A stretch of DNA of 35,820 bases, taken from NCBI GenBank assembly GCA_016871675.1, contig VHCN01000032.1, positions 1-35,820 on the forward strand, written 5' to 3'. The notes below the pieces were generated by a model. The model was not told the origin of the DNA, ran no database searches, and saw nothing but the letters and a program-made list of their open reading frames with translations. The position numbers and the translations under genes are program-made. This stretch comes from Verrucomicrobiota bacterium (lineage in GTDB: Bacteria > Verrucomicrobiota > Verrucomicrobiia > Limisphaerales > VHCN01). This document shows positions 9,551 through 15,747 of this stretch, piece by piece (the stretch's first letter is position 1; each line of letters begins with the position of its first letter).

Positions 9551-10939
9551 TCAAATCTGCTCGAAGTAACGCTGCTTCTCCCAGTCGGTCACGGCGTTGC
9601 CGAACGCCTCGTGCTCCAGCCGCGCGTGGTGGGTGTAGAAGTCCACCACGTCGTCGCCGAAGGCGGTGCGGGCGAGGTTGGACTTCTCGAAGAGGCCGGT
9701 CGCGGCGCGCAGGGAACTCGGGAGGCGGGCGAGCTTCGGGTCCACGTAGGCGTTGCCGTGATACTCGGGGCCGCAGTCCAGTTTCTCGCGCACGCCCGCC
9801 ATGCCGGCCGCCAGCATCGCGGCGAAGGCGAGATACGGGTTCGCATCCGCGCCCGGCATCCGGTTCTCGATGCGGAACGAGCCGTCGTGCCCCACGACGC
9901 GGAAGCCGGTCGTGCGGTTGTCCACCGCCCACGCCATGCGCGTCGGCGCCCAACTGCCGGGCTGGTAGCGCTTGTAGCTGTTGATGGTCGGCCCGAAGAA
10001 CAGGCACAGCTCCGGCGAGTATTTCATCAGGCCGCCGAGGAATTGTCGAAAGAGCTTGGAACCCTCCACGCTTGTCGTCTCGGCACTTTTGCCTTTTGCC
10101 TTTCGCCTTTTGCCTACTTCGCCCGCGAACATGTTCTTCCCACCCCTCCACAAGCTCATGTGAATGTGGCACGAGTTGCCCGCTTCGCCCGGCGCATACT
10201 TCGCCATGAACGTCACCGCCCTGCCGTGCTGCGCGGCGATTTCGCGAACGCCCTGCTTGAAGAGCGCGTGCATGTCCGCCATCGGCAGCGGGGCGGCGCA
10301 GGTGAAGTTGATCTCGTGCTGGCCGCGGCTCCACTCGCCCTTGCTGCTCTCCACCGGCACGCGCGCGGCGCACATGCCGTTGCGGATGGCGCGCATGAGC
10401 GGCTCGTCGCGCGTCGGCTGCATGAGGTGGTAATCAATCCGGTAGTCGCTCGACGGCTGGAGTTCGCGGTAGCCGCCCGCGCGCGCGGCTTCGTAGGTCT
10501 GGTTGAACAGGTAAAACTCCAGCTCGCTCGCGCAGACGCAGGTCTGGCCCTGCTTCGCGAGCAAGTCCAATTGCCGGCGCAGCACGGAGCGCGGCGCTTC
10601 CGCGACGAGCGTGCCGTCCTCGCGCGCTAGGTCGCACAGCACGAACGCCGCACCCGGCTGCCACGGCAGCACTCGCAGCGTGTCCATGTCCGCCCGGAAC
10701 ACAAAGTCGCCGAAGCCCGCGTCCCAGTTCGCGACCTTGAAGCCATCGAGCGGGTCCATGTCGAGGTTCACCGTGAGCAGGTAATTGCATCCGTGCGTCC
10801 CGTGCTTCACGACCGAGTCGAGGAAGAAGTCGGCGCGGAACCGCTTGCCCACCAGCCGGCCGAATGGATCAGGGAAGGCGACGAGGACGGTGTCGATGAA
10901 TCCGGACTTAATCTGGGATTTGAGTTGGGCGAGGGTCAT
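9551..10939 (-). CDS. Glutamine synthetase-family enzyme, gamma-glutamylpolyamine synthetase-like
   Basis: 462-aa ATP-dependent amide ligase of the glutamine synthetase fold. The N-terminal half carries FPDPFGRLVGKR. The catalytic half has ASELEFYLF (metal-binding Glu), GQHEINF, GNSCHIHMSLW, the FFGPTINSYKRY substrate region and SFRIENRMPGADANPYLA. These fit the PuuA-like branch, which glutamylates amines, rather than housekeeping GlnA, and the aldehyde dehydrogenase next door supports that. Residues about 270-290 contain a lysine-rich stretch (GKRRKAKGKS) encoded by a heptamer repeat, between the HIHMSLW strand and LFRQFLGG, where I expect only a short loop. The ATG at 10939 directly follows another heptamer array. 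Substrate, polyamine or other amine, is not proven. Confidence 0.83.
   Translation of the reverse strand: MTLAQLKSQIKSGFIDTVLVAFPDPFGRLVGKRFRADFFLDSVVKHGTHGCNYLLTVNLDMDPLDGFKVANWDAGFGDFVFRADMDTLRVLPWQPGAAFVLCDLAREDGTLVAEAPRSVLRRQLDLLAKQGQTCVCASELEFYLFNQTYEAARAGGYRELQPSSDYRIDYHLMQPTRDEPLMRAIRNGMCAARVPVESSKGEWSRGQHEINFTCAAPLPMADMHALFKQGVREIAAQHGRAVTFMAKYAPGEAGNSCHIHMSLWRGGKNMFAGEVGKRRKAKGKSAETTSVEGSKLFRQFLGGLMKYSPELCLFFGPTINSYKRYQPGSWAPTRMAWAVDNRTTGFRVVGHDGSFRIENRMPGADANPYLAFAAMLAAGMAGVREKLDCGPEYHGNAYVDPKLARLPSSLRAATGLFEKSNLARTAFGDDVVDFYTHHARLEHEAFGNAVTDWEKQRYFEQI
10087..10114. repeat. In-frame heptamer array inside the GS-family gene (unit TTTTGCC)
   Basis: Four tandem 7-bp units: TTTTGCC at 10087-10093 and 10094-10100, TTTCGCC at 10101-10107, and TTTTGCC at 10108-10114. 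On the coding strand they specify residues about 276-285, a basic run absent from the relatives I can recall. The frame is preserved across the array. The period matches the intergenic arrays at 575 and 10943. Confidence 0.85.
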
Positions 10940-10942
10940 GGG

Positions 10943-10963
10943 GCGTAATGCGTAATGCGTAAT
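10943..10963. repeat. Heptamer tandem array (unit GCGTAAT) next to the GS-family start codon
   Basis: Three exact 7-bp units plus a partial fourth (GCGTCAG, to 10970), beginning 3 bp upstream of the ATG at 10939 of the minus-strand GS-family gene. The inverted form (TTACGCA) occurs twice at 11198-11211, at the other end of this 278-bp intergenic space. Confidence 0.85.
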
Positions 10964-11197
10964 GCGTCAGAAGGCGCGTGGACTCGGGGCATCATGGCAT
11001 CGGGATAGTGCAAAGCAAGGCGGCCAAGTCTGAAGCATCGGAATCGGCTTCGTTGTCTGCTGCGGTTCGATAGGGAACCGGGTCTTCTCGCAACTCACTG
11101 CCGCGCTGGTCGGGAACCATCTTCAGCAGAAGCTTGATGACTTCGGTCAGGAGCTTCATGCGGTGCTGGGCGACTCCGGGCCCAAGCACCCTTCTTC
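10964..11197. other. Intergenic spacer bounded by inverted heptamers
   Basis: This space separates the ALDH stop from the GS-family start. A 65-codon minus-strand frame (11189-10992) is open in it, but it matches no family I recognise and its codon use looks random, so I do not call a gene. The whole unit, 10943-11211, is bounded by GCGTAAT and its inverse TTACGCA and could be a small non-autonomous element. I see no clear terminator or promoter. Confidence 0.4.
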
Positions 11198-11211
11198 TTA
11201 CGCATTACGCA
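11198..11211. repeat. Inverted heptamer pair (TTACGCA x2)
   Basis: Two exact units of TTACGCA, the reverse-complement phase of the GCGTAAT array at 10943-10963, lying 6 bp beyond the ALDH stop codon. Confidence 0.75.
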
Positions 11212-11217
11212 GCACCC

Positions 11218-12753
11218 TCATTCCGCCACATACACATTCTTCACCTCCGTATACCCCTCCATCGCCGCCATGCCCAAGTCCCGGCCCAGCCCGCTCTGCT
11301 TGTATCCGCCGAACGGCGCCTCCACATGCACGCTGCTGTGCGAGTTGATGCTGAGGACGCCGCTTTGCACGGCACGGGCGACGCGGAGGGCGCGGCGGAG
11401 GTCGTTCGTCCAGATGGAGCCGCTGAGGCCGTAGGGCGACGCGTTGACGGCGCGGAGCATCTGCTCCTCGTGGTCGAAGGGCACGATGCACACGACCGGG
11501 CCGAAGATTTCCTCGCGCCAGCAGCGGGTGGACTTGTCCACGTCCAGCAGGACGGTGGGTTCAAGGTAAAAGCCCTTGCTTGGCGACGAACACCCCTCAC
11601 CCTGCCCTCTCCCCTCATCGGATGAGGGGAGAGGGTGGCCGGAGGCCGGGTGAGGGGTGTCTTCGGCCGATGACTGGACCCGGGGCCGATTGCCGCCGCA
11701 TGCAAACTTCGTTCCGCACTTCTTCGCGTCGGTGAGGAAGTCCTCCACGCTCGCACGCTGGGCTGCGGAGACGAGCGGGCCAAGTTGCGTTGCGTCCTGC
11801 TTCGGGTCGCCGACGATAAGCTTCTTCGTGGCAGCGACGAAGCGTTCGGCGAATGCCTCGTAAATCCCGCGCTCGACGAAGACGCGGCTGCGGGCGCAGC
11901 AGTCCTGGCCGGTGTTGGCGAAGACGCTCAGCGGCGAGGTGTCGGCGGCGCGCTGCCAGTCGGCGTCCGCGAAGACGATGTTCGGCGACTTGCCGCCGAG
12001 TTCGAGCGAGACGCGCTTCAAATCGCGCGAGGCGAGTTCCATGAGGCGCCGGCCAATCTCCGTTGAGCCGGTGAAGGAAACCTTGCGCACAAGCGGATGC
12101 GTGACGAGCGCATCGCCGATGGCGGAACCCGGGCCGACGAGCACCTGCAGCACACCGGGCGGCAACCCGGCGGCGAAGGCGAGTTCGCCGAGCCGCAGCG
12201 CGGTGAGCGGCGAGAGCGACGCGGGTTTGAGCACGACGCAGTTGCCGGCCGCCAGGGCGGGCGCGGCCTTCCAGCACGCGATGGGGAATGGGAAATTCCA
12301 CGGCACGATGGCCGCGACCACGCCCATCGGCTCGCGCAGGGTGAAGTCCAGCCCGCCGCGCGCGACGGGGATGGTCTGCCCGCAGAACTGGCCGATGGCT
12401 CCCGCGTAATACTCGAAGACCCGCGAGCCGAGGCCGATTTCATCCCGCGCATCGCTGATGGGCTTGCCGATGTTCGCGCATTCGAGCTGCGCGAGTTCCT
12501 CGCGGTGCTCGCGCAGGACGCGGGCGATGTTGAAGAGGATTTCCGCGCGCTTGCCGGGCGCGAGATTGCGCCAGCTATCCTCCCAAGCCCGCTGCGCGGA
12601 CTCGACGGCGGCGCTCGCATCCGCAGGCGTGGCGGTAGCGACTTCGGTGAAAGCCTCCTCGGTGGCGGGGTTGATGAGTTGCATGGGCGATGCGCGATGC
12701 TCTCCCAGCCGGTTCGCGAGGGCAAACATCGAGTTCTTCACGGGCGCGGTCAT
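11218..12753 (-). CDS. NAD-dependent aldehyde dehydrogenase with in-frame palindrome insert
   Basis: 511-aa member of the aldehyde dehydrogenase superfamily, oxidising an aldehyde to an acid with NAD(P). Visible are the cofactor-site region IVPWNFPFPIACWK, the LELGGKSPN glutamate, the catalytic cysteine in NTGQDCCARSR, EEIFGPVVCIVPF, and the C-terminal PFGGYKQSGLGRDLG. It is PuuC/betaine-aldehyde-like, and lying beside the GS-family ligase it could oxidise a gamma-glutamyl-aminoaldehyde. Residues about 360-392, between GGNRPRV and KGFYLEPTV, are an extra 33-residue segment encoded largely by a 69-bp palindrome. Without them the protein has a normal length. ATG at 12753 is chosen; ATG at 12684 is an alternative. 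Divergent from the opp operon across 88 bp. Confidence 0.9.
   Translation of the reverse strand: MTAPVKNSMFALANRLGEHRASPMQLINPATEEAFTEVATATPADASAAVESAQRAWEDSWRNLAPGKRAEILFNIARVLREHREELAQLECANIGKPISDARDEIGLGSRVFEYYAGAIGQFCGQTIPVARGGLDFTLREPMGVVAAIVPWNFPFPIACWKAAPALAAGNCVVLKPASLSPLTALRLGELAFAAGLPPGVLQVLVGPGSAIGDALVTHPLVRKVSFTGSTEIGRRLMELASRDLKRVSLELGGKSPNIVFADADWQRAADTSPLSVFANTGQDCCARSRVFVERGIYEAFAERFVAATKKLIVGDPKQDATQLGPLVSAAQRASVEDFLTDAKKCGTKFACGGNRPRVQSSAEDTPHPASGHPLPSSDEGRGQGEGCSSPSKGFYLEPTVLLDVDKSTRCWREEIFGPVVCIVPFDHEEQMLRAVNASPYGLSGSIWTNDLRRALRVARAVQSGVLSINSHSSVHVEAPFGGYKQSGLGRDLGMAAMEGYTEVKNVYVAE
11591..11659. repeat. 69-bp palindromic element in frame inside the ALDH gene
   Basis: The outer arms, 11591-11602 and 11648-11659, are 12-bp perfect inverted repeats. 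The inner arms, 11605-11618 and 11622-11635, are 14-bp perfect inverted repeats around a CGG loop. The element resembles the CCCTCTCCCCTCATC-type palindromes that occur between genes in many genomes. Here it sits inside a coding frame, which stays open and gains a Pro/Gly/Ser-rich loop. Confidence 0.9.
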
Positions 12754-15593: not shown

Positions 15594-15619
15594 AACCGGA
15601 AGAACCACGAATGGGAAGG

Positions 15620-15676
15620 ACACGGATTGCACGGATTCACACGGATTCAATCCGTGCCAATTCGTGGAATCCGTGT
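15620..15676. repeat. 57-bp near-perfect palindrome between the two permease genes
   Basis: The 28-bp arms at 15620-15647 and 15649-15676 match at 24 of 28 positions around a single central C. Each arm contains repeated CACGGATT units. Weaker symmetry continues outward (ACCACGAATGGG on the left near 15604; ATTCGTGTCCCC on the right near 15696), so the complete repeat may span about 15604-15720. It resembles CACGAATGGACACGGATT-type palindromes that I recall as abundant between genes in this phylum. It could form a strong hairpin in the opp transcript. Confidence 0.85.
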
Positions 15677-15747
15677 CTGCCCTTCGGCTCATCCGATTCG
15701 TGTCCCCTCGTGTCCCTGCGTGGTATCCCCTTTTCACGACTGACGTG

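Follow-up and report, generated by a model that had tools for sequence, protein, structure and literature searches.

A dispersed palindromic repeat matching the BoxC/TM pattern lies in frame in an aldehyde dehydrogenase gene and in other genes of a Verrucomicrobiota genome

How a DNA palindrome came to lie within the open frame of a conserved enzyme, and what becomes of it in the protein, is the question raised by an aldehyde dehydrogenase (ALDH) gene of a Verrucomicrobiota bacterium. The gene is located in a stretch of 35,820 nucleotides (contig VHCN01000032.1 of assembly GCA_016871675.1), hereafter called the window, which is contig C32 of the genome G000, a draft of 3.6 Mb in 149 contigs, 97% complete. 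An earlier note, made from the letters of the window, had drawn attention to 33 extra residues in the ALDH and to the palindrome under them. The gene and its insert are placed as follows:

11218 to 12753, minus strand: aldehyde dehydrogenase gene (stop codon at 11218-11220; matched by PF00171 and by its AlphaFold model)
11578 to 11676, minus strand: 33-codon in-frame insert, without counterpart in 60 of the 62 other orthologues (alignment of 63)

Apart from the insert, which lies in frame between GGNRPR and KGFYLEPT, the protein is intact, as had been claimed: the frame is open and the residues invariant across 40 aligned orthologues are retained, including N153, K176, E251 and C285. The match to PF00171 (E 2.6e-167) comes in two stretches interrupted at the insert, and the AlphaFold model resembles betaine/aminoaldehyde dehydrogenases with a TM score of 0.87. 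The closest orthologues belong to Verrucomicrobiota labelled subdivision 3, Limisphaerales or Pedosphaera, and the ALDH search of the genus and family returned no genome besides the window's own. To our knowledge, this lineage is not known as intracellular.

Inserts at this loop are confined to the window gene and to two orthologues, L032 and L033, which form one clade with it (bootstrap 100, SH-aLRT 99), the other 60 of the 63 aligned orthologues having none. The record of one of these, L098, holds a masked stretch with its two sides in different frames, and it was placed in the tree as two pieces. Orthologues sharing the 33 residues were looked for as counter-evidence and were not found; in fact, the L032 insert at this loop has a different sequence, GVPPSSGRGVLPPKGGTPN. 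In the AlphaFold model the insert residues 363-390 have pLDDT below 50 and are flanked by two confident strands, in a fold mostly above 90; thus, the insert is predicted, on this model, to be a disordered loop. The earlier note had considered that it might be functional protein sequence; a neutral disordered loop is the more likely of the two.

The DNA under the insert contains a palindrome, here called element A, whose parts are listed below:

11591 to 11659, no strand assigned: palindromic element A, 69-bp core (dispersed in its own genome; fold z -8.2; covariation across 20 copies)
11591 to 11602, plus strand: outer arm, 5' (12 bp)
11605 to 11618, plus strand: inner stem, 5' arm (14 bp)
11622 to 11635, plus strand: inner stem, 3' arm (14 bp)
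11637 to 11647, plus strand: minor hairpin GGCC-GGA-GGCC (4-bp stem)
11648 to 11659, plus strand: outer arm, 3' (12 bp)
11594 to 11635, minus strand: putative BoxC/PIT/TM triplex-motif core CCCTCTCCCC-loop-GGGGAGAGGG-CA-GGGTGAGGG, by pattern match to the motif of PMC4666352

The coordinates and the 12- and 14-bp stems that had been reported for this palindrome were borne out, and a third stem of 4 bp was added to them. The predicted fold has an energy of -39.9 kcal/mol, against -18.5 +/- 2.6 for shuffled sequences (z -8.2; none of the 200 shuffles reached it), and codon shuffles of the ALDH gene gave no hairpin stem longer than 11 bp, compared with 14 bp in the real gene. Moreover, in an alignment of 20 copies (16 from the window's own genome and 4 from relatives) the three helices, comprising 30 pairs, are paired in 98% of the cells, and 29 compensatory cells were counted versus 9.5 in shuffles, a control that does not amount to a probability since the copies are related. 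The ALDH copy consists of the core only, without the outer ends of a larger unit. We also observed that at L005, L007, L008, L011, L012, L013 and L018 element A is nested in such a unit, whose outer ends are TGAACC and GGTTCA. The 99-bp insert is about 30 bp longer than the palindrome, and these about 30 bp are not element A.

Element A is not confined to the ALDH gene. As had been supposed, it is dispersed in the host genome, in about 30 copies, a count limited by the first-look filter that the search applied; 31 copies were examined. By a codon-usage gene finder, 16 of the 31 are intergenic and 15 lie inside genes, all 15 open and in frame, with no gene-breaking copy among the 31. The gene finder is crude, its training set being eleven genes from the same genome: over the whole window it chose one start wrongly and missed the ALDH gene itself. 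For many of the hosts the assignment can be read from the protein families, since Pfam or PDB matches flank the element on both sides, or span it, in the ALDH, Gfo/Idh/MocA, MlrC, PSD1, tandem ABC ATPase, anthranilate-synthase-type, UvrB, MidA, UvrD and EPSP synthase genes; for the DUF7133 (twice), FG-GAP/DUF7133, DUF2064 and MetE-like hosts it rests more on codon usage. Long ORFs running across the intergenic copies L003, L011 and L012 were discarded as genes, being without Pfam match. The possibility that the ALDH insert is a single accident or an assembly artefact, with no wider pattern behind it, might be raised for a draft genome in 149 contigs, but the same arrangement recurs across many genes whose flanks differ, and also in several further genomes, and these other copies refute it, leaving it the least credible of the explanations that we weighed.

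The gene-located copies make use of all three codon phases and of both orientations, which implies that no single peptide is being kept. Element A is open in 66% of the strand and phase combinations, so that a random insertion into a gene would be both open and in frame in about 22% of cases, and the chance of finding 15 of 15 genic copies in frame is p about 1e-10. If all frame-breaking copies were lost and nothing else mattered, 57% of the copies would be expected in genes, a figure that uses the window's coding fraction of 0.857 and is accordingly rough, and 48% were observed; selection against broken frames is thus sufficient, and no frame-sensing insertion is needed. These numbers bear also on the idea that the segment is never translated, either because it is cut out of the mRNA or because the ribosome jumps over it, in the manner of an intron or a hop element. 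The very stable hairpin in the message and the fully conserved protein around it would suit such a removal, which, however, needs no open, frame-preserving insert, yet the 15 gene-located copies are all of this kind; no Rfam family was matched when the window was scanned, and we consider this idea very improbable.

The reading that we prefer, to which we give a probability of roughly 85%, is that a BoxC/TM-type repeat has spread by untargeted insertion, that the copies breaking frames have been lost, and that those in frame remain as translated, neutral loops of enzymes that keep working. Element A would thus spread through the Verrucomicrobiota genome with regard neither to frame nor to strand, and copies breaking conserved frames would be eliminated, the survivors being about half intergenic and about half in frame in permissive loops. 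One copy would have entered the ALDH gene with the frame retained, in a loop that joins two strands, and most likely it is transcribed and translated there as a flexible, disordered loop while the enzyme still works. Frame conservation by itself is not proof of a working protein. On the sequence evidence used throughout, the dispersal of the element, its in-frame state, its absence from the orthologues, the conserved fold of its DNA and the recurrence at the same loops are shown; that the inserts are translated and neutral, and how the repeat spreads, is what we infer. As for this route, the flanks showed no excess of repeats over shuffled pairs (p 0.94), and hence no sign of the target-site duplications of a MITE moved by a DDE transposase, and no PF01797 match, indicative of a Y1 (HUH)/RAYT transposase, was found in the 3.6-Mb, 97% complete genome, in which the controls were positive. 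In the flanks of 22 copies, inspected by eye without formal scoring, no uniform unpaired GTAG or CGTC tag was seen.

The earlier note had pictured the ALDH loop as the site of a single element. Element A is indeed there, but an unrelated palindrome in the same loop of the sister lineages had been missed: the DNA of the L032 and L033 inserts forms another palindrome, GTTTGGAGTCCCGCC...GGCGGAACTCCAAAC (element B). Its forms, between 61 and 113 bp long, are dispersed over both of these genomes, and it did not turn up in the genome of the window. In the ALDH of L033 element B is partly decayed as a palindrome, with the frame retained. The right flank of the ALDH copy in the window, CGCCAAGC, is similar to CTCCAAAC of L033, and we considered that the extra 30 bp could be remnants of element B from a common ancestor, eight similar bases being too few to decide. 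As a separate observation, L132 and L135, two genes from G002 and G001 that look orthologous, are both open and each contain a 67-bp copy of element B, which suggests an old shared insertion.

A similar picture, also absent from the earlier note, emerged for UvrB, whose orthologues in the order either lack an insert or carry, at a single site, between 14 and 57 additional residues. The site is occupied by element A in the window's genome, by element D followed by A in G030, and by a GTAG-like element C in G007, each of these palindromes being dispersed within its own genome. In addition, the UvrD of G060 has an insert of similar size and different sequence. In our reading, the same permissive loops have been struck repeatedly, in separate lineages, by unrelated palindromes whose copies then decay to lineage-specific loops. 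That this is general in the order, with dispersed palindromes continually supplying housekeeping and repair proteins with new loops, is a proposal whose odds we regard as about even.

The recurrence in repair proteins could also suggest that the inserts are useful, the repeat providing a loop, or an mRNA or DNA structure, that is kept by selection. In line with this, element A is found in UvrB and UvrD, and in RecQ of G030, the frame of element B is retained in two diverged species, and repair genes are reported to host many intragenic REPs (PMC3733652). On the other hand, the hosts are many unrelated proteins, with three phases and both strands giving no common peptide, the UvrB insert sequences vary freely among lineages, many of which have no insert, and purifying selection alone already predicts an intact frame. 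Usefulness thus appears unlikely, and neutral loops left by untargeted insertion would account for the same observations.

As to its kind, element A belongs by sequence pattern with the BoxC/PIT/TM triplex-type repeats. The motif of this class (a pyrimidine block, a loop, the complementary purine block, a short spacer and a second purine block) is matched in relaxed form by 17 of 22 copies, the ALDH copy included, and most copies share with the repeats described in PMC4666352 the core CCCTCTCCC-loop-GGGAGAGGG-2/3 nt-GGGTGAGGG. Dispersal is also common to both, and palindromic variants exist. By contrast, the palindrome of element A is longer and has three stems, one of them an additional minor hairpin; and, while the BoxC/PIT/TM repeats of E. 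coli are reported to be always intergenic (PMC4666352), about half of the examined copies of element A are genic and in frame, location not being part of the motif definition. The earlier comparison with the in-frame palindromes of Rickettsia and the assignment of the repeat to an intergenic-type family were both supported; the reading was too narrow in leaving out these genic copies and the unrelated palindrome at the same loop of sister lineages. Rickettsia RPEs are dispersed palindromes found in frame within unrelated protein genes (PMC3733652), and element A works in a like way, being dispersed, in frame in conserved genes and without counterpart in orthologues; the likeness drawn here is one of mode, and the host is of a different phylum. 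Intragenic GTAG/CGTC REPs have been described in Opitutus terrae, in uvrB of R. conorii and in UvrD/REP helicase genes, among others, with different REPs at about the same recB site in two Xanthomonas species (PMC3733652). Element A resembles them as a short palindrome in frame in genes, repair genes among its hosts, and differs in its greater length, in having, by eye, no GTAG/CGTC tag standing out at its borders and in the lack of a Y1/RAYT transposase in the genome searched.

Since RPEs and intragenic REPs have already been reported, in-frame palindromes are a known kind. What appears to be new is a BoxC-type repeat as protein sequence, for which no earlier report was found in the literature searched, with subscription journals mostly outside reach; moreover, one UvrB loop has received three palindrome families and the ALDH loop two, which exceeds the single recB precedent. 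Repeats described so far as intergenic structure elements without an established role are here part of the open coding sequence of many genes, and repeats like element A may become new protein loops. Orthologues with, without, or with different palindromes at one loop make both palindrome spread and loop origin directly testable.

The element A family was matched in 28 of 58 genomes of the order, and its consensus had no match among 72,556 plasmids. The genic share is smaller in two relatives, 4 of 25 copies in G004 and 7 of 20 in G030, where, besides UvrB, the ValRS, RecQ and MnmA genes hold copies.

Other repeats were noted in the window. The glutamine-synthetase-like gene beside the ALDH has, at 10082-10117, a loop made of in-frame AAAGGCA-type heptamer repeats (KRRKAKGKSAETT), and the same loop of the L098 orthologue carries repeats of another heptamer, CGGAGTC. 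Repeats of a GCGTAAT unit (10945-10966 and 11198-11211) lie on either side of the space that separates the glutamine synthetase gene from the ALDH gene. Finally, an inverted repeat of 29 bp, built from CACGGATT-type units, lies at 15619-15677, directly past an ABC permease gene, and is probably another dispersed repeat.
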